Shown here: positions 1,451 through 11,299 of the stretch, in pieces
Numbering within the stretch: the stretch's first letter is position 1
How the letters are laid out: every line of letters begins with the position of its first letter
Assembly (NCBI GenBank): GCA_001874255.1
Contig: MPDC01000005.1
Location: 1 to 64,000 of the forward strand
Length of the DNA stretch: 64,000 bases
Source of the DNA: Alphaproteobacteria bacterium MedPE-SWcel
Lineage (GTDB): Bacteria; Pseudomonadota; Alphaproteobacteria; Rhodobacterales; Rhodobacteraceae
Reading direction: 5' to 3'
Program-made: the position numbers and the translations under genes
Notes under the pieces: generated by a model
Databases searched by the model: none
What the model was told of the DNA's origin: nothing
The model's input: the letters and a program-made list of their open reading frames with translations, nothing else

Positions 1451-1849
1451 TTGGTTGCAACACTCAGCCTAGCCTGCGCACGGGGAACCGTTTCGCGTGT
1501 TCTGAGATCCGAACTAAAAGCATTTTCATGCGTAAGACAGTTCCATAAGGTTAAAGAACTGGCCAACCCGCTGAGAGAACTCTTGTCAAAACTTCCGTAT
1601 TCAACCCAGCCCCAAATATTCATCCTGGCAGGAATGCTGCAACGCCCATCATTTCTACCCTGGATTGCCCGCCATAGTCACAGGCTTGGTTTGACGTGTG
1701 AGACACTTCACCTGGATGCGAGCAAGGCTGTGTTCAAGATAGAAGGGCAAGCCGATCTGATCGACGCATTTGAGGTTGCTTGTCTTCTTGGGCCTTTCGA
1801 TGTTTGGGTTGAGACGATTGAACGCCTTCCTGCGACATCTGAAGGATGA
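1451..1849 (+). CDS. Degenerate acylphosphatase-like small protein
   Basis: Small protein of up to 132 residues. Residues about 56-126 follow the acylphosphatase fold pattern: a beta strand, then AGMLQRPSFLPWIARHSHRLGLT in the place of the G-R-V-Q-G-V-F-F-R loop and first helix, then the closing segment FKIEGQADLIDAFEVACLLGP with the family's typical spacing. The two catalytic residues are missing: the loop arginine aligns with Leu69 and the asparagine of the G-W-V-R-N strand aligns with His87. So it probably does not hydrolyse acyl phosphates; the fold may have been kept for binding. The start is uncertain: only a TTG is available at 1451 and no ATG exists before the domain, so the 5' end may have been replaced by the adjacent IS element. 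The assignment rests on pattern alignment by eye. Confidence 0.5.
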   Translation: MVATLSLACARGTVSRVLRSELKAFSCVRQFHKVKELANPLRELLSKLPYSTQPQIFILAGMLQRPSFLPWIARHSHRLGLTCETLHLDASKAVFKIEGQADLIDAFEVACLLGPFDVWVETIERLPATSEG

Positions 1850-2060: not shown

Positions 2061-2702
2061 ATGGCTATTGAAACCGAGGCACGTTGGGTTCCGATTGCAG
2101 TATCTTGTGACATTTTAGACGGAACAGTTATTCCGGCGAGGCTGCCAACGGGTCCCATAGCGGTTTGGAGATCGGCCTCAGGCTCTCTCTACGCGAATGG
2201 AGACCGTTGCCCACATCGGGGGATGCGTTTGTCACAGGGGTTTGTACGGGGTGAAACCCTGTCTTGCATCTATCATGGTTGGCGCTTCGGAGCCGATGGC
2301 GCCTGTCAAAAGATTCCAGCGCACCCCAAAGTCTCGCCCCCCAAAACCATCAATTGTGGTCCTTTACCTGTGACAGAGGCAAATGGGGTTGTCTGGGGGG
2401 CTGCGACGTCACCTGTCGACGCACCTGATCAATTCGTAGGCCATGACGCTCTGCGCAGCCTTGTGGTGGCCGCATCAACAGACGCCATTGCATCAGCCTG
2501 CGAAGGTGAGTGGGTTGGTGAAGCGATTGCAGTGACGCTTGGCGGGCAGAATACGATCTTGCTTTTAAATCCTTATGGGCCAGCCGAGGTCCTCGTGATT
2601 GCCCTGGTCCCGAGAGGGCTTACTGCGCCAGATCTGGTAAGGGTTTCCACCGCCCTTGAGGCCTTGCGGCGCAGCGCCGAAGCTGTGGGAGAGGCGGCAT
2701 GA
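2061..2702 (+). CDS. Stand-alone Rieske [2Fe-2S] protein
   Basis: Protein of 213 residues. The N-terminal half is a Rieske ferredoxin domain with the cluster ligands C50-x-H52 (RCPHRG) and C69-x2-H72 (CIYHGW). Residues about 110-213 form a second region I do not recognise, with no iron-site motif of a Rieske oxygenase. The start is the ATG at 2061, after GGGGGACAAAAGAAC; an upstream in-frame start at 1974 would add 29 unlikely residues. The stop overlaps the next ATG (ATGA), and the next gene encodes an oxygenase catalytic domain that lacks a Rieske domain. I infer that this protein supplies the missing cluster in trans and passes electrons to it. No flavin reductase is encoded nearby, so a shared cellular reductase would be needed. 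Confidence 0.85.
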   Translation: MAIETEARWVPIAVSCDILDGTVIPARLPTGPIAVWRSASGSLYANGDRCPHRGMRLSQGFVRGETLSCIYHGWRFGADGACQKIPAHPKVSPPKTINCGPLPVTEANGVVWGAATSPVDAPDQFVGHDALRSLVVAASTDAIASACEGEWVGEAIAVTLGGQNTILLLNPYGPAEVLVIALVPRGLTAPDLVRVSTALEALRRSAEAVGEAA

Positions 2703-3541
2703 CCCCTGATTCAGTGCGCAACGCATGGTATCCCGTGGGTCTTTTGTCCGACCTGAACCCAGATGGAAAAGAGAGCCTCCTGCTGGGGGAAACGATCACA
2801 ATCTTCGGATCTGATATGGGGGAGCCAAGGGTTGAATGCGGTGGACGCGGTCTTCCCGTTGTGCCGCGGTTTGGCCACCTTTGGACGAGCCTTGGCGCAC
2901 CCGACAAAGACCTCTTCACAATCCCTGAAGCAGATCACCCAGACCGGACCTTGGTCGACGTTGGCGTCGTGCGGGTCAAATGCTCACCGCTGCGCGCGGT
3001 GGAGAATTTCCTCGACATTGCCCATTTTCCCTTTGTTCACACAGATATTCTGGGGGCTGAATCACATCCCGAGGTCAGCGACTACCAGGTTAAGATTCGC
3101 GACGATGTAGATGAGGTCTGGGCGACAAAGGTTGAGTTTTATCAACCACAAGCCGCCAAATCGGCGGGTGGTGGAATCATGACGGAATATATGTACCGAG
3201 TGCCCACGCCTACATGCTCTATTCTGTACAAGACTTGCCCACCGCGCCCCGGGGAATGGGATGTTATTGCCCTTTTTGTGCAACCCCTCACCGAAGACCT
3301 CTGTGATGTTTGGCCTTGGATGGCACTTTTCGACGACGAAAGCGCGATGACGGACCTGATCCATTTCCAGCAGCTGATCTTCCTGCAAGATCGATCTATT
3401 CTGGAAAGCCAGATCCCCAAAAGACTGCCCCTTGATCCCGCAATGGAAACCCCAACGCGGGCTGACCTTACGTCCGTCGCGTATCGGCGTTGGCTCAAGC
3501 GTCAAAATTATACGTATGGCGCGCAATTGGTGGCCGGATGA
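2699..3541 (+). CDS. Rieske-less oxygenase catalytic subunit (NdmC-like)
   Basis: Protein of 280 residues matching the C-terminal, non-haem iron domain of vanillate-demethylase/N-demethylase type Rieske oxygenases. The iron-site segment is E102-N103-F-L-D106-I-A-H109-F-P-F-V-H114, the usual N-x2-D-x2-H-x4-H pattern; a later acidic residue in FLQDRSILESQ (near residue 230) is the likely third ligand. No C-x-H or C-x2-H Rieske motif is present, so the protein is about the length of a catalytic domain alone. NdmC of caffeine degradation (7-methylxanthine N7-demethylase) is also a Rieske-less subunit and works with a GST-like protein; a GST-like gene follows here with an ATGA overlap. A hydroxylation or N-demethylation of a purine-like ring is therefore the leading inference. 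The substrate is not shown by sequence. Confidence 0.8.
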   Translation: MTPDSVRNAWYPVGLLSDLNPDGKESLLLGETITIFGSDMGEPRVECGGRGLPVVPRFGHLWTSLGAPDKDLFTIPEADHPDRTLVDVGVVRVKCSPLRAVENFLDIAHFPFVHTDILGAESHPEVSDYQVKIRDDVDEVWATKVEFYQPQAAKSAGGGIMTEYMYRVPTPTCSILYKTCPPRPGEWDVIALFVQPLTEDLCDVWPWMALFDDESAMTDLIHFQQLIFLQDRSILESQIPKRLPLDPAMETPTRADLTSVAYRRWLKRQNYTYGAQLVAG

Positions 3542-4194
3542 TCCTGTATGATTACATTCTATCCCCGAGTTGCTACAAACTGCGGCTTTTGGCGTCACTG
3601 TTGGATGTGCCGCTTGAGCTGCGCGCGGTCGACTTCCATCCGGGACGCGAACACAAGGGTGCTGCACTTTTAGCCCTCAACCCCGCCGGGTGCCTTCCGA
3701 TCCTTGTGGATGGCGACCTCGTCCTCACAGAAAGTGCGGCGATACTTGCCTATCTAGCAGCCCAAAGCGGCCCCAACTGGCTGGCCGATGGAGATCCACA
3801 GGCCATAGCGCTCCAACAGCAATGGTTGTCGTTTTCTCACCGGCTTGCCGAAGCCTTGGGGGGCGCCAGACTAGTGGAGATGTTGCATTTCGACGGTGAT
3901 CTGGAGGCGCTTCAATCCGACGGGATCGCAGCCTTGCGAGAGTTGGAGGCAGCTCTATTCACACGTCGGATCGCCGGCGGCACCTTCCTTGTGGGAGACA
4001 TGCCTTCAATTGCCGACATCGCTTGTTTTCCATATGTGGCACTGGCCCCTGACGGCAGCATCTCGCTTGATCCTTACCCGTCCATTCGACTCTGGATGCG
4101 GGCTCTGCGCTCCTTGCCCGGGTTCATTGAAATGCCCGGAATTCACCGTCTGCACGAACTGGCCCCTGACCCGTTTGCGAAGGATTTGTCGTGA
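3538..4194 (+). CDS. GST-like protein (NdmE-like position)
   Basis: Protein of 218 residues with a thioredoxin-fold N-terminus (ILYDYILSPSCYKLRLLASLLDVP), the glutathione-site segments GCLPILVDGDLVLTES, and an all-helical C-terminal domain with the GST signature-like G-D-M-P-S-I-A-D-I-A. The start at 3538 overlaps the previous stop as ATGA. It could be a conventional maleylacetoacetate-isomerase-like enzyme. However, there is no ring-cleavage pathway here, and the direct neighbour is a Rieske-less oxygenase. In the NdmCDE N-demethylase the GST-like NdmE has a structural role in the complex, and the same gene pairing here suggests a similar scaffold role. The GST fold is clear; the function is inferred from context. 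Confidence 0.8.
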   Translation: MILYDYILSPSCYKLRLLASLLDVPLELRAVDFHPGREHKGAALLALNPAGCLPILVDGDLVLTESAAILAYLAAQSGPNWLADGDPQAIALQQQWLSFSHRLAEALGGARLVEMLHFDGDLEALQSDGIAALRELEAALFTRRIAGGTFLVGDMPSIADIACFPYVALAPDGSISLDPYPSIRLWMRALRSLPGFIEMPGIHRLHELAPDPFAKDLS

Positions 4195-5558
4195 CCGGTG
4201 TGCTCTTTAAAAACTGTGCCGCAGTCGTCGTTGACTTTGGCAATGGGGCAGAGACCCTGCGACACGTAGATCTGCTGACCGAAGGCTCCGCTATCAGAGC
4301 CATCGGACCAAACCTGAGCGCGTCGGGTGCTATAGTCAAAGACGCGAGCGGTTGGTTCATCTACCCTGGCCTCGTGAACACACATCACCATTTCTTTCAG
4401 ACTTTTGTGCGCAACCGTGCTGATCTGGATTGGACGAAACTGTCTGTGATCGAATGGCTTGACCTGATCTACCCGATTTTCTCGCGCTTGACCGAGGATT
4501 GCTTCTATCACTCGTCCCTCACTGCTATGGCGGAGTTGATCAAACACGGCTGCACCACAGCTATGGATCACCAATATTGCTTCCCACGTCACGCAGGGAA
4601 GCGGCTGATAGATCGCCAGTTTGAGGCAGCAGACCTGCTCGGCCTGCGCTTTCATGCTGGGCGTGGCGGCAACACATTGCCGAAATCCGAAGGGTCCACG
4701 ATCCCCGATGAAATGCTTGAGACCACCGACGAATTCATCGCCGATTGTGAACGGGTCATCGACACCTACCACGACCCAAGCCGTTTCAGTATGCGACAGG
4801 TGGTGGTCGCACCCTGCCAACCCGTCAATTGCTACAAGGACACGATGGTGCAGTCCGTGGCGCTCGCCCGTGACAAGGGCGTTGTTCTGCACACGCATGT
4901 CGGCGAAGGTGAAAGCCCGGTTTTGGAGGCGCGGACAGGGCAGCGCACCGTCGCCTATCTCGAAGACATTGGCTTTGCTGGGCGGGATACGTTCTACGCG
5001 CATTGCTGGGAACTCAGTCATGACGAGCTGAAACGCCTTGCCGCCACTGGCACGGGCGTGTCGCATTGCCCGGAACCGGTGTATCTGGTGGGGGCAGAGA
5101 TCACGGACATCCCAGCGATGCAATCTTTGGGTGTTCGCATGAGCCTTGGCGCAGATGGGGCCGCTTCGAATGACAACTCGAACCTGATGCATTGCGTCCA
5201 CTCGGCCTATATGCTGCAGTGTCTTGCGGCCAGCACCCGCCAGCACCCGGTGCCAAGCCCTGCGACCTTCCTCGACTATGCCACCAAAGGCGGGGCTTCG
5301 GCTCTTGGCCGGGATGACATTGGCCACCTCGCGCCAGGCATGGCGGCTGATCTCTTCGCAATTGATACGCGCCGGATGGACTACGTCGGCACCCGTCACG
5401 ATCCCCTGAGCTTGATCCCAAAGGTCGGAATTGGAAGCCCAACCGACCTGACCATGATCAACGGCCAAATCGTGTGGGAGGACGGCGCATTCACCAATGT
5501 AGACGAACGAGACCTGTTCCAAGACGCGGAACGAGCACTTGCAACACTTGATGATTAG
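4191..5558 (+). CDS. Amidohydrolase, 8-oxoguanine-deaminase-like
   Basis: Metal-dependent deaminase of 455 residues in the TrzN/AtzB/guanine deaminase branch of the amidohydrolase superfamily. The metal site is complete: H65-x-H67 in NTHHHF, H236 in HTHVGEGE with E239, H271 in YAHCWEL, and D322 in LGADGAASND. The N-terminal flow (YPGLVNTHHHFFQTF, then GCTTAMDHQYCFP) is that of 8-oxoguanine deaminases. It differs after strand 6: CPEPVYLVGAEI replaces the usual CPSSN-M-x-L-A-S-G, so the substrate may differ. The start is GTG 4191 in a GTGA overlap with the GST stop. Deamination of an exocyclic amino group on a guanine-like ring fits the nucleoside-type importer downstream. 7-Methylguanine or 8-oxoguanine are possible substrates (inference). 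Confidence 0.8.
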   Translation: MTGVLFKNCAAVVVDFGNGAETLRHVDLLTEGSAIRAIGPNLSASGAIVKDASGWFIYPGLVNTHHHFFQTFVRNRADLDWTKLSVIEWLDLIYPIFSRLTEDCFYHSSLTAMAELIKHGCTTAMDHQYCFPRHAGKRLIDRQFEAADLLGLRFHAGRGGNTLPKSEGSTIPDEMLETTDEFIADCERVIDTYHDPSRFSMRQVVVAPCQPVNCYKDTMVQSVALARDKGVVLHTHVGEGESPVLEARTGQRTVAYLEDIGFAGRDTFYAHCWELSHDELKRLAATGTGVSHCPEPVYLVGAEITDIPAMQSLGVRMSLGADGAASNDNSNLMHCVHSAYMLQCLAASTRQHPVPSPATFLDYATKGGASALGRDDIGHLAPGMAADLFAIDTRRMDYVGTRHDPLSLIPKVGIGSPTDLTMINGQIVWEDGAFTNVDERDLFQDAERALATLDD

Positions 5559-5580
5559 ACCCCAAAAACGGAATATTGCT

Positions 5581-6684
5581 ATGACTGACACTCTCAACCG
5601 CAGAAACTTCATCGCTGGCGCGTCGCTCGCGACGATGGTCGCGACACTCGGCGCGCGTGCCAGTGCCGCTACAGCAGACGATCCCCTGATCGTCACACTT
5701 ATCATTCCCTCACCTGTGGCAGATGTGGGCTGGGGCCACGCGCTTTTTGAGGCGCTGGAAACCGTGAAAGCGGACTATGGCGATGCGATGCAGCTCTCCG
5801 TCATTGAGAACATCTACGAAGGCCCAGATGCTGACCGTATCATGAACAAAGCCGTGGCCGAAGGGACGAAAGTCTTGGTCGCAGGCTCTTTCGGCTACCA
5901 AAACGGAGCGATGCAGATCGCACGACGGAACCCAGATGTGACTGTATTGCACGCCTCGGGCTATATGGTTGCACCGAATTTTTCACCCTTCGCAGCACAG
6001 TACAGCCAAGGCACCTATCTGATGGGTATGGCAGCTGCGGCGCTATCGAAAACAGGTAAGATTGGCTCTGTCTCAGCCTTCGCAATTCCCGAGCTGATCA
6101 CCTCGTTGAACGCCTTTGTGCTTGGCGCACAGCGGATCAACCCCGACATCGAACTGTCGGTTGTCTGGCTAAACTCGTGGTTCGACCCGGCCAAAGCACA
6201 AGAATCGACCGAAGCACTGGTGGCACAAGGGTGCGATGTGCTGTTCTCGAATGCACAGGATACCCCTTCGGTGGTCGCAAAGGCTGAAGAGCTGGGCGTC
6301 TACTCTTTCAATCTTAATTCATCCATGAAGGCCTATGCGCCAAACACCTATCTAGGTTGCGTGCTGACCGATTGGTCGCCATTCTTCCGTGCCTCGATCA
6401 AAGCGCATCTTGAGGGCAGCTTCCAAGGGGCGAATGCTTTCCTCGGCGTGAGCGATGATGTGGTGAACGTCGTGGATTGGAGCCCAGACATCCCTGAAGA
6501 CGTCGTGGCCCAGATCACAGAGGTCGAGGCCGCGATCGCGGATCGGTCCTTCTCTCCCTTCACCGGCCCGATCATGAAGGCTGACGGGTCTGAAGGCGTC
6601 GCGGCAGGCGTCACGATGACCGATGCAGAAGTGATCAGTATGGATTGGCACGTTAAAGGCGTCACCACGCCACTGCCGGGCTGA
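5581..6684 (+). CDS. BMP-family ABC substrate-binding protein, Tat-exported
   Basis: Periplasmic binding protein of 367 residues in the BMP/PnrA/Med family, which binds nucleosides, purines and related compounds. The N-terminus has a twin-arginine signal (NRRNFIAGASLATMVATLGARASA), with cleavage expected after the Ala-x-Ala near residue 28. Internal features are the family type: IENIYEGPDADR, VAGSFGYQNGAMQIARRNPDV, and SQGTYLMGMAAAALSKTGKIG. The start is ATG 5581, since the upstream in-frame ATG at 5539 lies inside the deaminase gene and before the Tat motif. It follows the deaminase by 22 bases and precedes the ATPase by 3, so it belongs to the same operon. It probably captures the operon's N-heterocyclic substrate. 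Confidence 0.88.
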   Translation: MTDTLNRRNFIAGASLATMVATLGARASAATADDPLIVTLIIPSPVADVGWGHALFEALETVKADYGDAMQLSVIENIYEGPDADRIMNKAVAEGTKVLVAGSFGYQNGAMQIARRNPDVTVLHASGYMVAPNFSPFAAQYSQGTYLMGMAAAALSKTGKIGSVSAFAIPELITSLNAFVLGAQRINPDIELSVVWLNSWFDPAKAQESTEALVAQGCDVLFSNAQDTPSVVAKAEELGVYSFNLNSSMKAYAPNTYLGCVLTDWSPFFRASIKAHLEGSFQGANAFLGVSDDVVNVVDWSPDIPEDVVAQITEVEAAIADRSFSPFTGPIMKADGSEGVAAGVTMTDAEVISMDWHVKGVTTPLPG

Positions 6685-6687
6685 CCT

Positions 6688-8199
6688 ATGGTCGAACCCC
6701 TTCTCTCTTTGCGTGGCGTCACAAAGCGCTACGGTACGATCCACGCCAACTCTGGCGTGGATCTTGACGTGATCCCGGGTGCGATCCACGCAATTTTAGG
6801 AGAGAACGGCGCAGGGAAATCGACCCTGATGAAGCTGATCTACGGGGTTCAAACACCTGACGAAGGCTCAATTGAATGGCAGGGGGAGGCAACGCATATC
6901 AGCTCTCCTGCGATGGCGCGACGCCTGGGCATCGGCATGGTTTTTCAGCATTTCTCGCTGTTCGAGACGCTGACTGTCGTTGAAAACGTGTCACTGCTCG
7001 TGCCCGGCAAAAAGAAAGAACTGACCGAGCGCATCTTCGAGCTGGGGAAGGCCTTCGGGCTTGAGGTCGACCCCCTCGCGCATGTCTATTCACTCTCGGT
7101 GGGGGTACGTCAACGGGTCGAGATTATTCGCTGCTTGATGGCAGACCCGAAACTCCTCATCTTGGATGAGCCAACCTCTGTCCTGCCGCCACAATCGGTC
7201 GAACTCCTCTTTGATACGTTTCGCCGACTGTCGGCGCGAGGGGTGTCGATCCTCTTTATCTCCCACAAACTTGAGGAAATCCGCTCTATCTGTACGCACG
7301 CGACAATCCTGCGCGGCGGCAAGGTCATGGGCAATGTCACGCCAAAGGACTTTGACGCGCATGCCTTGGCCACCATGATGATCGGGCACGGCATGTCGAC
7401 TGTGTCGCCTGCCAAACCCGTCGCGCGTGGCGCAAAACAGCTGGAGCTGAACAACCTTTCGCGCGCCTCGGATGACCCATTCGGTGTCTCTCTCAAAGGC
7501 ATCTCGCTCCATGTCCGAGGGGGCGAAATTCTCGGAATCGCGGGGGTTTCCGGCAATGGTCAGTCAGAACTCGCAGCCGTGATCTCAGGGGAAAGATCTT
7601 TACCCAAAACGGTGCAGGGTACCATATCAATGCTGGGGCAAGCCGTTGGCCGGCTCAACCCTGCGGCACGGCGCAAACTGGGCTTTGCATTTGTACCCGA
7701 AGATCGCCTTGGCCAAGGCGCGGTGCCTGAATTGTCACTGATCAAGAACGCGATCCTTACCGCCCATGGCCATGGCATGACCAACAGGGGGATGATCCGG
7801 CGTGCCCGCGCCGAAACCTTCGCCCAAGACTGTATCGTCAGGAACGACGTCCGCACAACCGGCCCCGAGGCTGAGGCTGGCTCGCTTTCAGGTGGAAACC
7901 TGCAGAAATTCATCATTGGACGTGAGCTGGCGCTGGAACCCAAGCTGCTGTTCCTAAACCAACCCACCTGGGGCGTGGATATCGGCGCTGCCACGGCCAT
8001 CCGCAAACGGCTGATCGAGCTGCGGAATTCAGGCTGTGCGATCATTGTGATATCGGAAGAGTTGGAAGAACTTTTTGAGCTGACAGACTATATACAGGTT
8101 CTGAGTGAGGGCCGCCTCAGCCCCCGTTTCTCGACAAACGAGACACGCCCCGAAGACATAGGGCGCGCAATGATTGGCGCGAGTGAGGGATCAGCATAG
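6688..8199 (+). CDS. BMP-type ABC importer ATPase (duplicated)
   Basis: ATPase of 503 residues with two ABC domains in tandem, as in nucleoside importers (NupA/YufO) and sugar importers (RbsA). The first half has a full Walker A (GENGAGKST, residues 38-46), the signature LSVGVRQRVEIIRCL and Walker B LLILDEPTSVL. The second half has the usual degenerate P-loop GVSGNGQSE and a strong signature LSGGNLQKFIIGREL followed by LLFLNQPTWGVD. It starts 3 bases after the binding protein, and its TAG shares one base with the GTG of the first permease. It powers uptake together with the two permeases. Confidence 0.92.
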   Translation: MVEPLLSLRGVTKRYGTIHANSGVDLDVIPGAIHAILGENGAGKSTLMKLIYGVQTPDEGSIEWQGEATHISSPAMARRLGIGMVFQHFSLFETLTVVENVSLLVPGKKKELTERIFELGKAFGLEVDPLAHVYSLSVGVRQRVEIIRCLMADPKLLILDEPTSVLPPQSVELLFDTFRRLSARGVSILFISHKLEEIRSICTHATILRGGKVMGNVTPKDFDAHALATMMIGHGMSTVSPAKPVARGAKQLELNNLSRASDDPFGVSLKGISLHVRGGEILGIAGVSGNGQSELAAVISGERSLPKTVQGTISMLGQAVGRLNPAARRKLGFAFVPEDRLGQGAVPELSLIKNAILTAHGHGMTNRGMIRRARAETFAQDCIVRNDVRTTGPEAEAGSLSGGNLQKFIIGRELALEPKLLFLNQPTWGVDIGAATAIRKRLIELRNSGCAIIVISEELEELFELTDYIQVLSEGRLSPRFSTNETRPEDIGRAMIGASEGSA

Positions 8200-9272
8200 T
8201 GGAATTTCCGAAGCTTGCACGCCGCGAACACGCGTCCGTGTCGGTCCTGATCGCAGCCCCCTTTGTGGCATTCGCAATGGCTGCGGTCAGTAATCTTGTG
8301 CTCTATGCCGCGATTGGCGTGGACCCTTTGGCGGTGTTCAAGGCGATGCTTCTTGACCCATTCACAAGCTATTTCTCATTTTCCGAGATCTTGTTGAAGG
8401 CAGGTCCTCTGCTGTTGATCGCGCAAGGGTTGGCAATTGGCTTCCGGGCCAAGATCTTCAACATCGGCGCAGAAGGGCAGTTCGTGCTGGGCGCCATCTG
8501 CGCCTCTGCAATCCCTGTCTATATGCCGCAAGCCGCAGGCCTCTGGGTCTGGCCCACTATGCTTGTGTTCGGGGCGCTTGGTGGGCTCGCCTGGGCCTCG
8601 ATCACTGCGTTCTGGCGGGTGCGGTTGAACGCGAACGAAATCCTTGTCTCCCTCATGCTGTCCTTCGTGGCGCTACAACTGTTGAACTACCTGTTGCTCG
8701 GGCCTTGGAAGGACCCGATGGGCTTTAATTTCCCACAGTCAGTCATGTTCCCCTTGGATGCTCTTTTGCCCACCCTGCTGCCCGGGACCCGGGTCAACGT
8801 TTCCCTCATCCTGGCCTTTGTCGTGTCTTTTATGGCCTGGGTTTTTGTGCAACGCAGCTTTGCCGGTTACCAACTTGAAGTTGGAGGCTTGGCCCCCAAT
8901 GCCGCGCGCTATGCAGGGTTCTCCCAAAGCGGCGCAGTCTGGATCTCGCTCCTGATTGGGGGTGCGGCTGCGGGGTTAGCCGGCGCTGCCGAGGTTGCCG
9001 GACCGGTCGGACAGCTGCAGCGATCGATCTCAACTGGCTATGGCTATGCTGGGATTATCGTGGCCTATCTGGGTGGCCTGCACCCGATCGGTATCATTTT
9101 CTCCGCATTCCTGATGGCGACGCTCTATATTGGCGGAGACAACGCGATGGTGTCAGCCGGCCTGCCGATTGCGGCCGTCAACGTTTTTCAGGGAAGTTTG
9201 CTGCTAGCTTACCTGATCGCGGTGACTTTCGTAAGACGCAAGCTGATCTGGCCAAAAAGGGCACCCGCATGA
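8199..9272 (+). CDS. BMP-type ABC importer permease 1
   Basis: Integral membrane protein of 357 residues with about ten hydrophobic segments, in the YufP/NupP branch of the branched-chain-type permease family. Typical elements are FRAKIFNIGAEGQFVLGAICAS, the motif of this permease class, and the coupling segment YQLEVGGLAPNAARYAGFS. The start is a GTG that shares one base with the TAG of the ATPase gene, so translation is probably coupled. The stop overlaps the next ATG (ATGA). Confidence 0.9.
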   Translation: MEFPKLARREHASVSVLIAAPFVAFAMAAVSNLVLYAAIGVDPLAVFKAMLLDPFTSYFSFSEILLKAGPLLLIAQGLAIGFRAKIFNIGAEGQFVLGAICASAIPVYMPQAAGLWVWPTMLVFGALGGLAWASITAFWRVRLNANEILVSLMLSFVALQLLNYLLLGPWKDPMGFNFPQSVMFPLDALLPTLLPGTRVNVSLILAFVVSFMAWVFVQRSFAGYQLEVGGLAPNAARYAGFSQSGAVWISLLIGGAAAGLAGAAEVAGPVGQLQRSISTGYGYAGIIVAYLGGLHPIGIIFSAFLMATLYIGGDNAMVSAGLPIAAVNVFQGSLLLAYLIAVTFVRRKLIWPKRAPA

Positions 9273-10180
9273 CAGCCATTTCATTTATTCTGGCGGGCAT
9301 GCTGGCCGCTGCGACACCCTTCCTGCTCGCCGCATTGGGCGAGTTGGTCGCCGAACGTTCTGGCGTGCTGAATCTTGGCGTGGAGGGGATGATGGCATTG
9401 GGGGCCGCCGTTGGGTTCATCACCGTCTATTCCGGGGGCGGGCATGTAATGGGCTTTGTTTTCGCGGGGCTGAGCGGCAGTGCTCTTGCACTTGTCTTTG
9501 CGTTTGTGACGCTCGGCCTGCATGCCAACCAAGTCGCCGCAGGCTTGGCGATCGGAATTCTGGGCCTTGGGCTTTCGGCATATTTTGGCAAGCCATTTGA
9601 GAGCTTCACCGTCACGGGTGTTGGCAAGATTGGGATCAACGGACTGGTCGATCTGCCGGTGATAGGCGGCCTGTTCAGGCAAGACATTGTCGTTTGGTTG
9701 TCGCTGATTTTCGCGCCGTTGATGTTTTACACCCTCAAAAATACCAAATTGGGACTTGTACTGCGGGCCGTGGGCGAGAATCCGGAGGCAGCTGACGCCA
9801 TCGGATATCCAGTAACCCTAATCCGTCTGTGTGCCGTTGCGTTTGGTGGCTTGATGGCGGGTGTAGCCGGAGCCTATGCTTCAACAATCTATACCCCTCT
9901 CTGGGCCGACGGCATGATCGCGGGACGCGGGTGGATCGCTGTTGCATTGGTCGTCTACGGGACTTGGATGGTGGGGCGTGTGTTTGTCGGGGCCTGTCTC
10001 TTTGGCGCAGTGTCGCTTGGGGGTATCGCTGCTCAAACTGTTGGCTTAGCAATACCGTCGCAACTGTTGGCAAGCCTGCCCTATGTCGTAACGATTATCG
10101 TACTCGGCATCATCTCATCCAATAGGCGTTTGCTGCAACTGAATGGAATCAAATCTTTAGGTGAGGTATTCGAAAAATAA
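9269..10180 (+). CDS. BMP-type ABC importer permease 2
   Basis: Membrane protein of 303 residues in the YufQ/NupQ family. The N-terminal helices lead into LAALGELVAERSGVLNLGVEGMMALGAAVGF, the signature of this family, and LRAVGENPEAADAIGYPV is the ATPase-contact loop. It is the last gene of the operon and pairs with the preceding permease to form the channel. No clear terminator follows it; the next 560 bases carry no gene. Confidence 0.9.
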   Translation: MTAISFILAGMLAAATPFLLAALGELVAERSGVLNLGVEGMMALGAAVGFITVYSGGGHVMGFVFAGLSGSALALVFAFVTLGLHANQVAAGLAIGILGLGLSAYFGKPFESFTVTGVGKIGINGLVDLPVIGGLFRQDIVVWLSLIFAPLMFYTLKNTKLGLVLRAVGENPEAADAIGYPVTLIRLCAVAFGGLMAGVAGAYASTIYTPLWADGMIAGRGWIAVALVVYGTWMVGRVFVGACLFGAVSLGGIAAQTVGLAIPSQLLASLPYVVTIIVLGIISSNRRLLQLNGIKSLGEVFEK

Positions 10181-10747
10181 TGCGTCTTGTGGGGACTGTT
10201 GCGCTGTTGGGTGAGGTCGAATTGGAGCGATGTCGATTTCCTGGATCATGAGACCGCGAATACCTGGCTGATGAACTGTATCTCCCCTGAAACGCCTGAT
10301 TTCTTGTGATGAATGTGGCCGCGTAAGTTCTACGTCCAAACCCCCGCAAACACAGGGGCATTACCGGACCTGTCGCAACGTGACTTGCGAGGCCAAGTTG
10401 CAAACCCAGTCCAATACGAGATCGTAGGCAAGCGCCCCATTAGACATCGCCTGTGCCTGTTCCTTGCGGGTTCTGTCGGCTGCCAGAGCGTCACCGGCCC
10501 CCGTCGGCACTGACGCACCAGAGTTGTGTCTGCACAAAGCCACACAGGCCGACGATCACCTAACGCGGCTCACAGAATCTTTACAGAATCGTTGACTGAT
10601 TTTATTAAAATATGTTACATTTTTCGAATACAAAGAGACAGCTTAGAACGTCCACTGGTTAGTGAATATGGTGTCGCCCGTAACGGCTTAAATTTTTAGT
10701 GGACGCGCGGGCGGAAGTAAATTGTGTTTAATTGGAGATTAAGAACT
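10181..10747. other. Gene-free region, possible IS scar and RTX promoter
   Basis: No open frame here resembles a known protein. The left part starts with GGGACTGTTGCGCTGTTG, loosely like an IS6-type end, and 10520-10550 holds GTTGTGTCTGCACAAAGCC, loosely like an IS5-type end. These hints are weak, but broken frames between them fit a decayed insertion. From about 10575 the DNA becomes AT-rich. An inverted repeat, CGTCCACT (10649-10656) with AGTGGACG (10698-10705), lies just before the RTX gene and could form a leader stem or an operator. Confidence 0.35.
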
Positions 10748-11299
10748 ATGACTTTTGTGGAACCAAACGGAAACGAAAGCGGTGTTATCGAAGCTGACAA
10801 CGGCGACAACCTAATTCACGGCCGAGGCGGTGATGACGTTGTCAACGGCCAAGGTGGCGATGACTACCTCCGAGGGGGCACAGGTAACGACGTCATGAAG
10901 GGCAACGTCGGTGACGACAAGCTCGCTGGCAGCGAAGGCAATGACAAACTTATTGGCGGTGGCGGCGACGACCATCTGACTGGCGGCAACGGCAACGACC
11001 ATCTGGTCGGTGGCGCGGGTGACGATATTCTGTCCGGTGGTCCCGGCAACAACAAGCTGACTGGCGGATCCGGTTCCGATACTTTTGTATTTGGCCCCAC
11101 CAGCGATGGCAAAACCAAGATCCTTGACTTTGAAATCGGTATCGACGAGCTGCGCCTGAACGGCGGCCTCGACGCAGATGGCTTCCGGGAATATGCGGGC
11201 GGCACGTACGCGGACCTGGATAATGGCGGCATCATCGTCTTCCAAGGTCTGACCGTTGCGGAAGTTGAGGCCATTTTTGACGAGTTTGTCATCATCTGA
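10748..11299 (+). CDS. Small RTX calcium-binding protein
   Basis: Protein of 183 residues. About residues 15-115 are a run of nine or more RTX nonapeptides (GGxGxDxUx type, for example GRGGDDVVN, GGTGNDVMK, GGNGNDHLV, GGAGDDILS), which fold as a calcium-loaded beta roll. The last 60 residues hold an acidic RTX C-terminal segment (TFVFGPTSDGKTKILDF), typical of type I secretion signals. There is no N-terminal signal peptide and no catalytic domain, so it is likely a secreted or surface-attached calcium-binding protein. The ATG at 10748 has GGAG upstream; a GTG at 10724 is an alternative start. No type I secretion genes lie in the window. It stands alone with its own terminator and precedes a polysaccharide locus. 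Confidence 0.85.
   Translation: MTFVEPNGNESGVIEADNGDNLIHGRGGDDVVNGQGGDDYLRGGTGNDVMKGNVGDDKLAGSEGNDKLIGGGGDDHLTGGNGNDHLVGGAGDDILSGGPGNNKLTGGSGSDTFVFGPTSDGKTKILDFEIGIDELRLNGGLDADGFREYAGGTYADLDNGGIIVFQGLTVAEVEAIFDEFVII

Follow-up and report, generated by a model that had tools for sequence, protein, structure and literature searches.

A predicted operon for methylated guanines, with a three-way split NdmCDE-type oxygenase and an NdmH-type hydrolase

Introduction

What does an operon act on that encodes a Rieske centre, a mononuclear iron oxygenase subunit and an amidohydrolase as separate proteins, and places an importer behind them? The question is raised by a locus near the start of contig MPDC01000005.1 of Alphaproteobacteria bacterium MedPE-SWcel; the stretch analysed (the window) comprises 64,000 nucleotides and begins at base 1 of the contig. 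The nine genes of interest are called X (acylphosphatase-like), R (Rieske protein), C (Rieske-less oxygenase subunit), G (glutathione S-transferase (GST)-like), D (amidohydrolase) and B, A, P1 and P2 (ATP-binding cassette (ABC) importer; Table 1). From sequence comparison, X-R-C-G appears to be a three-way split demethylase of the NdmCDE type, tied to an N2,N2-dimethylguanine hydrolase (NdmH). We lean towards the view that the operon imports methylated guanines and converts them to xanthine.

An earlier note, written from the letters of the window, had described R, C, G and D as four genes joined by 4-base overlaps and followed by a BMP-type importer. Coordinates and Pfam domains agree with that layout: successive genes from R to D overlap by 4 bases, all lie on the + strand, and B-A-P1-P2 is located downstream. 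The inventory is extended here by the small conserved gene X (~1583–1849), which lies before R and had been overlooked.

A Rieske oxygenase divided over separate genes

The two domains that a full-length Rieske oxygenase alpha-subunit carries in one chain are here distributed over two genes. PF00355 is the sole domain of R, which has ~100 further residues; PF19112 is the sole domain of C. The earlier proposal of a Rieske centre on a polypeptide of its own thus stands. A comparable division exists in NdmCDE, the 7-methylxanthine N7-demethylase of Pseudomonas putida CBB5, where a Rieske-less catalytic subunit likewise depends on the Rieske domain of another protein and has a GST-like partner. 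In NdmD, however, the Rieske domain is fused to a flavin mononucleotide (FMN)/NADH/ferredoxin reductase, whereas the R of the window is a separate polypeptide and the operon has no reductase.

Reference sequences were obtained by way of NdmA, whose letters in the output of the Protein Data Bank (PDB) led to a plasmid of P. putida MT178 (L191) with a 91% identical NdmA. The ndmB, ndmC, ndmD and ndmE genes of L191 were named from gene order and size; the record says only oxygenase, Rieske and GST. These presumed genes are accompanied by formaldehyde genes. Window C is 44% identical to NdmC (272 aa), compared with 31% for HpxD, 24% for NdmA and 23% for NdmB. The R profile aligns along residues 7–243 of NdmD with 138 bits, and Pfam finds no reductase domain in R (213 aa); R is the counterpart of the first ~240 residues of NdmD, minus the reductase. 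Over 205 aa, G shares 42% identity with L191 NdmE. These matches bear out the NdmCDE-like division of labour that had been suggested earlier, without mention of the missing reductase. The gene sets differ in another respect: the L191 cluster combines NdmCDE with NdmA/NdmB and a nucleobase symporter, while in the operon, which has X in addition, the partners are a BMP importer and a hydrolase of the NdmH type. HpxD (of the xanthine hydroxylase HpxDE; annotated copy L070) is also a Rieske oxygenase that acts on a purine, but differs from C in being full-length, with its own Rieske domain; its 31% identity to C applies to the catalytic part.

The relationship between C and NdmC was examined in a tree of 53 rows. 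All 80 loci of a genome scan (the best 80 of at least 508 C relatives among named genomes, and hence chosen on C) were left out, as were L053 and L064 and near-duplicate or unextracted copies (L037, L039, L040, L042, L043, L062, L179, L181, L183–L186 and one C copy of L182). L192 was labelled fused by assumption, and two L180 rows, whose branch of length 10 was rejected as an artefact, were re-extracted by open frame. A single branch (94/95, not starred) separates the 40 Rieske-less proteins from the rest. Among these 40, 25 split-type rows are grouped at 99/97, and NdmC is joined by five relatives at 99/96. L047 and L193 each have a second C copy of the split type that lies outside the group of 25; the minimum number of changes between the split and fused states is two. 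Clustering of C with aromatic-acid demethylases, which would have spoken against the earlier proposal, is not seen; C groups with NdmC. Fused relatives have already been noted in print, in a text whose available parts do not mention the three-way split.

The expected metal sites are retained. C50, H52, C69 and H72 of R do not vary among 46 R proteins, nor do H109, H114, D231 and D106 of C among 49 C proteins; we take the former to be the cluster ligands, H109, H114 and D231 to be the iron ligands, and D106 to be the bridging Asp. D231 was also located by alignment to the NdmA motif. At the pair that distinguishes NdmA from NdmB, presumably numbered N282/F286 of NdmA, the residues are N/F in NdmA and HpxD, Q/L in NdmB and the NdmA QL mutant, and Q/F in window C and NdmC. 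Over the Rieske-less set, the first position is Q in 34, E in four and M in two proteins, and the second is F in 37, S in two and L in one.

Predicted models of R and C (predicted local distance difference test scores of 96.3 and 87.7, respectively) add a structural aspect. The best PDB matches of the R model are whole oxygenase subunits, SxtT and GxtA, at query template modelling (TM) scores of 0.68–0.76 over 257–280 columns and 4–7 angstrom; against the same chains, the C model reaches 0.79–0.88. Since only ~55% of R is Rieske domain, some of the non-Rieske remainder seems to superpose as well. In these models R looks like a cluster domain with a stunted catalytic fold, and C like an iron site with a stunted Rieske fold; the two resemble complementary pieces left over from a single full-length subunit. 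In ordinary Rieske oxygenases, electrons pass between neighbouring subunits. A three-way split into complementary remnants, if true, would show that separate proteins are able to re-create this electron path between subunits. A phrase search of the open literature for a split Rieske oxygenase returned no report.

The amidohydrolase has an NdmH-like active site

NdmH enzymes from Pleomorphomonas oryzae, Haliea and a Rhodobacteraceae bacterium have been reported together with their active-site residues (PMC13054789). According to the parts of that report used here, they convert N2,N2-dimethylguanine to xanthine and prefer it 150–3600-fold over guanine. A signature of 13 residues was taken from it: (i) the motif CQNN, (ii) W85, W93, Y98, Y133 and P300, and (iii) the catalytic residues Q74, E243, H275 and D326. 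Window D has 11 of them at a constant offset of −4, and its H271 and D322 correspond to H275 and D326, so that all 13 are present. The complete signature recurs in 66 of 67 D homologues of the scan (from 68 loci with D at ≥50% identity, one being too short), the exception, L072, being cut at an internal start. The Pleomorphomonas homologue (L120) has CQPVN and agrees with poNdmH numbering at all ten positions printed; its alignment with window D shows the same residue in 346 of 459 columns. The signature is strong evidence that D is an NdmH-type hydrolase. The difference lies in its setting: window D is part of an oxygenase operon, while the main text of PMC13054789 does not contain the words 'Rieske', 'operon' or '7-methylguanine', and the parts used here describe no gene neighbourhood.

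The earlier description of D as 8-oxoguanine-deaminase-like did not hold. The best NCBIfam model of D is indeed that of 8-oxoguanine deaminase (NF006055), but the score of 383.4 bits compares with a cut-off of 532. The closest solved chain, 7ww2, which lists 8-oxoguanine deaminase among its names and was used for the active-site comparison rather than the characterised P. aeruginosa enzyme, has D, M, S and S at W81, N161, Q210 and N213 of window D. With the NdmH signature complete and the score below the cut-off, 8-oxoguanine deaminase was rejected as an identity for D. The CQNN of D also sets it apart from AtzB, which has SSII, and the D relatives of L048 and L051–L053, with M, C, S and S at these columns, are not NdmH-like. 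The NdmH-like active site of D thus speaks against 8-oxo purines and brings N2-methylated guanines into consideration.

The importer and its binding protein

A purine is the probable ligand of B, judging from its best solved relatives, 3s99 and AtzT (6pi5), both at ~240 bits. The parts of PMC6834077 consulted state that AtzT binds guanine at 0.11 µM, that its Asn218 adjoins the amino group of guanine, and that 3s99 was modelled with adenine. Window B retains S97, F98, E165 and W194 of AtzT, with Y45 replaced by W. The scan yielded 73 loci with a B match >150 bits: 69 at ≥55% B identity, among them two loci without D (L110 and L124), and four others. The equivalents of the aromatic sandwich and of the Ser/Phe/Glu purine contacts (W45, S97, F98, E165, W194) are present in all 69. 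A non-purine binding protein, the outcome that would have counted against the purine ligand of the earlier note, was thus not encountered; B is nearest to guanine-binding AtzT and purine-binding 3s99.

The B loop that matches the Asn218/Asn220 region differs in being one residue longer than that of AtzT, and reads NAQD in the window. One alignment gave Ala at AtzT position 218 in 69 of 69 close B proteins; a second placed the insertion and kept Asn, and a general Ala at this position was rejected. Because the two alignments disagree at Asn218/Asn220, the raw loop motif was used alone. It is NAQD in 64 and KAQD in five of the 69, and LYQD in all four others; three of these four loci have only a distant D (26–28%) and the fourth has none. 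LYQD is also found in L045, where a guanine deaminase takes the place of D. A covariation of B loop and D type is therefore suggestive, with few independent cases on the LYQD side.

Gene X

Homologues of X lie upstream of R in 78 of the 80 scan loci (tblastn). Window X itself has no Pfam match. Among eight homologues tested against PF00708, three scored over the cut-off, one below it and four not at all; NCBI annotation calls two X homologues acylphosphatase. We take the residue after the conserved Phe of X to be the position of the catalytic Arg in acylphosphatases. Arg directly follows this Phe in none of the 58 homologues matched by pattern (the other 20 of 78 were unmatched), and X is probably catalytically inactive.

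An unannotated copy of X is also present in a Komagataeibacter cluster from kombucha (L193). With window X as single query, no match was obtained in loci with fused NdmD (L056, L057, L060–L064), nor in L040, L044, L054 and L055; since the latter are of the split type, the single-query search is not sensitive. Four X queries gave no match in L177–L182 and one in L187. From these distributions, X likely goes with the split form of the oxygenase. An open literature search for a link between acylphosphatase and Rieske oxygenase returned no report.

Distribution of the operon

The same gene set, for which the earlier note had recommended a search, is found widely. In a sample of 390 genomes of the order (own genome included), 11 gave a strong match to D (E ≤ 1e-100), and D adjoins C in every one of them. 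R, C and G are present in 80 of 80 scan loci. Together, these counts indicate that the association of R, C, G and D is not due to chance. Twelve C proteins of the order sample have ≥57% identity; 11 are accompanied by this D, and the twelfth (L045) by the guanine deaminase instead.

Among the 69 scan loci with at least 8 kb downstream, the order R-C-G-D-B-A-P1-P2 is found in 61. The remaining eight consist of L110 and L124 (without D), L116 (X-R-C-G only), L135, L136, L142 and L151 (other order) and L138 (matches in pieces). The importer starts 112 and 156 bases after G in L110 and L124, respectively; in L110, L116 and L124, D is absent from the stretch examined. C has near or remote matches (E ≤ 1e-5) in 306 plasmid records (128 Rhizobium, 65 Sinorhizobium); on pRL10 of Rhizobium johnstonii 3841 the genes follow each other as LysR, X, R, C, G, D, B, A, P1, P2. 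The five other genomes of the window's genus in the sample have neither a C match nor a strong D match, and the operon was for this reason probably acquired by the window genome.

Proposed function and alternatives

The conversion of methylated guanines to xanthine would proceed in several steps. Firstly, B-A-P1-P2 would take up the base, as homology to AtzT and 3s99 suggests. Secondly, D would replace the 2-amino, 2-methylamino or 2-dimethylamino group by oxygen, yielding xanthine or an N-methylxanthine; this step is predicted from the active-site signature. Thirdly, an external NAD(P)H reductase would reduce the Rieske cluster of R, from which electrons would pass to the mononuclear iron of a neighbouring C. 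Finally, C would hydroxylate a ring N-methyl group, most likely that at N7, and the methyl would leave as formaldehyde to give xanthine. G, and perhaps X, may hold the assembly together. RNA-derived 7-methylguanine, N2,N2-dimethylguanine and N2,N2,7-trimethylguanine are the likely substrates of the operon; for the oxygenase, we infer both the substrate and the methyl position (N7). A substrate methylated at N2 as well as on the ring, or a pool of different methylguanines from RNA, would explain why NdmH and the oxygenase occur together, and N2,N2,7-trimethylguanine would be the simplest single molecule that needs both enzymes. The deaminases that replace D in related loci (guanine deaminase, TIGR02967, in L045; adenosine deaminase, TIGR01430, in L057; each scores above its cut-off) are in keeping with an oxygenase that is common to these loci while its partners vary.

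The operon supplies genomic context and a partner for the newly found NdmH-type enzymes, and the NdmC/E-like genes of rhizobia and Rhodobacteraceae gain a testable role besides caffeine breakdown. No report of bacterial 7-methylguanine catabolism was found in a search of the open literature, the listed matches being urine metabolomics by their listing.

A more specific version, possible but doubtful as a whole, is a salvage pathway for the bases of eukaryotic RNA caps and tRNA. Here N2,N2,7-trimethylguanine and 7-methylguanine would be imported, NdmH would release dimethylamine or ammonia to form 7-methylxanthine, and a three-way split oxygenase, in which an ancestral subunit survives as two complementary halves, would remove the N7 methyl to leave xanthine, with the GST-like and inactive acylphosphatase-like proteins as a scaffold.

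Several observations weigh against the conversion of methylated guanines or against parts of the argument for it. NdmH turns N2,N2-dimethylguanine directly into xanthine, so that this substrate alone needs no oxygenase. In the stretches examined, L110 and L124 combine X-R-C-G and the importer without D, and L116 has X-R-C-G only; pSymA of S. meliloti carries an importer, two C, a fused NdmD-like gene and a GST, with no deaminase annotated beside them. Neither a formaldehyde nor a dimethylamine gene was seen among the operon genes. Nor was a dedicated reductase detected: a reductase query matched nothing in 78 of the 80 scan loci and matched weakly (24–27%) in two, and the best match to an NdmD-type reductase in the own genome (38%) is part of a 1089-codon open frame. 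The NdmC, NdmD and NdmE references are genes named from cluster context, not published sequences, and the loop insertion makes a residue-by-residue reading of B against AtzT dependent on the alignment in that region. In the C-terminal half of R, a search for a stunted catalytic-domain sequence by hidden Markov model (HMM) and hhalign gave matches at noise level only. Finally, the function of the operon is a prediction from sequences and modelled folds.

The route of the earlier note, with 7-methylguanine as the sole native substrate, D deaminating it to 7-methylxanthine and C removing the N7 methyl, is in our judgement unlikely. In its favour, C lies nearest to NdmC, an enzyme that acts on 7-methylxanthine. 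Moreover, the guanine deaminase of L045 belongs to a type for which the consulted parts of PMC13054789 give NH2 as the only leaving group seen, and a guanine with a free 2-amino group therefore suits the same kind of oxygenase in that locus. Yet the full NdmH signature of D, and the substrate preference that goes with it, would be hard to understand if the 2-amino group were never methylated.

It is improbable that R and C form a C8 hydroxylase which, like HpxDE, oxidises to urate the xanthine that D makes from N2,N2-dimethylguanine. Xanthine is the known NdmH product (PMC13054789, in the same parts), and the gene annotated HpxD, a molybdenum-independent xanthine hydroxylase, is related to C. 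However, C is much nearer to NdmC, and its equivalent of N282 is Q where HpxD has N. Candidate xanthine oxidisers are, in addition, already at hand in related clusters (L048 has a molybdenum hydroxylase, and in L063 a full-length oxygenase lies next to hpxO), and the window genome has seven MoCoBD_1 matches with unassigned substrates.

We give equally little credence to another aminated N-heterocycle (a triazine, a pterin, or a plant or marine guanine alkaloid) as the substrate, with RNA bases being incidental. AtzB is stated to have arisen from an NdmH-type enzyme (PMC13054789) and AtzT to bind 2-hydroxyatrazine (PMC6834077), each in the parts of these papers used, and many carriers of the operon are plant-associated rhizobia; against this, D has CQNN rather than the SSII of AtzB, and purine deaminases and relatives of NdmA and NdmB adjoin the same C family. 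An 8-oxoguanine pathway, in which D deaminates to urate 8-oxoguanine that is imported or made by the oxygenase, is very improbable: the best NCBIfam model and one of the names of 7ww2 point to it, but the score is far under the cut-off and 7ww2 differs from D at all four positions given above.

Related clusters

The split form also occurs beside relatives of NdmA and NdmB, which had escaped the earlier note. L047, from the same family as the window genome, has two split R/C/G sets, X and a gene that is reductase-like by eye, together with relatives of NdmA and NdmB (554 bits to 6ick and 396 bits to 6icl, respectively) and a TIGR02818 formaldehyde dehydrogenase over cut-off. Plasmid pKNA08 of Komagataeibacter nataicola (L193, the kombucha cluster) carries a 68% match to NdmA and a second full-length oxygenase, besides two Rieske-only and two GST genes, formaldehyde genes and a PDR/VanB reductase. 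The split sets of L047 and L193 resemble that of the window in their three-way R/C/G division with X (C1 is 52% identical to window C); they differ in the added NdmA- and NdmB-like oxygenases and reductase, and no D homologue was seen in the stretches examined. From these gene contents, we infer that both clusters degrade caffeine. The two C proteins of L047 (9259–14118) and those of L193 are nearly identical, on tree branches of <0.02, which suggests that a cluster of the methylxanthine type has recently moved between hosts that differ widely.

Other arrangements are more distant. L048, L051, L052, L053 and L065 are divergent clusters with X-R-G, two different C and one or more amidohydrolases; a two-piece thiamine pyrophosphate (TPP) enzyme, a GMC oxidoreductase and a molybdenum hydroxylase are also present, in what looks like a longer purine-type pathway. 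In L188, L189 and L190 (family f43, same phylum), a full-length Rieske oxygenase stands among genes for a BMP importer and adenosine- and guanine-deaminase-like proteins, perhaps an unsplit version of the same idea. Upstream of the operon in L036 (2263–8356) lie sarcosine oxidase beta (TIGR01373) and, by eye, alpha-like and formyltetrahydrofolate-deformylase-like (PurU-like) genes; one-carbon genes here adjoin a predicted demethylase.

Operon layout and neighbouring genes

Table 1. Genes of the operon, with positions in the window and the basis of each assignment.
Gene	Predicted product	Position	Strand	Basis or remark
X	Small acylphosphatase-like protein, probably non-catalytic	1583..1849	+	Start uncertain; open frame from 1451
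R	Rieske [2Fe-2S] protein, 213 aa	2061..2702	+	PF00355; profile match to NdmD 7–243; model
C	Rieske-less mononuclear iron oxygenase subunit, NdmC family	2699..3541	+	PF19112 (VanA_C) only; tree; model
G	GST-like NdmE homologue	3538..4194	+	PF02798/PF13410; 42% identity to NdmE
D	N2,N2-dimethylguanine hydrolase (NdmH)-type amidohydrolase	4191..5558	+	PF01979/PF07969; active-site residues
B	BMP-family, probably purine-binding protein of importer	5581..6684	+	PF02608; 3s99 and AtzT (6pi5) nearest solved
A	ABC importer ATPase, two ABC domains	6688..8199	+	PF00005 in two stretches
P1	ABC importer permease	8199..9272	+	PF02653
P2	ABC importer permease	9269..10180	+	PF02653

The 1089-codon frame of the own genome (contig C43; L201, 4700–7966) has a C-terminal FNR/ferredoxin reductase part and an N-terminal part that is reductive dehalogenase-like by eye. 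An IS5-type transposase gene (97–1275) precedes the operon at the contig end (C45). On the other side, window positions 10724–11299 encode a small protein with many GGxGxD-type repeats, by eye calcium-binding and RTX-like; it is followed by acyltransferase-like and membrane genes that resemble those of polysaccharide synthesis.

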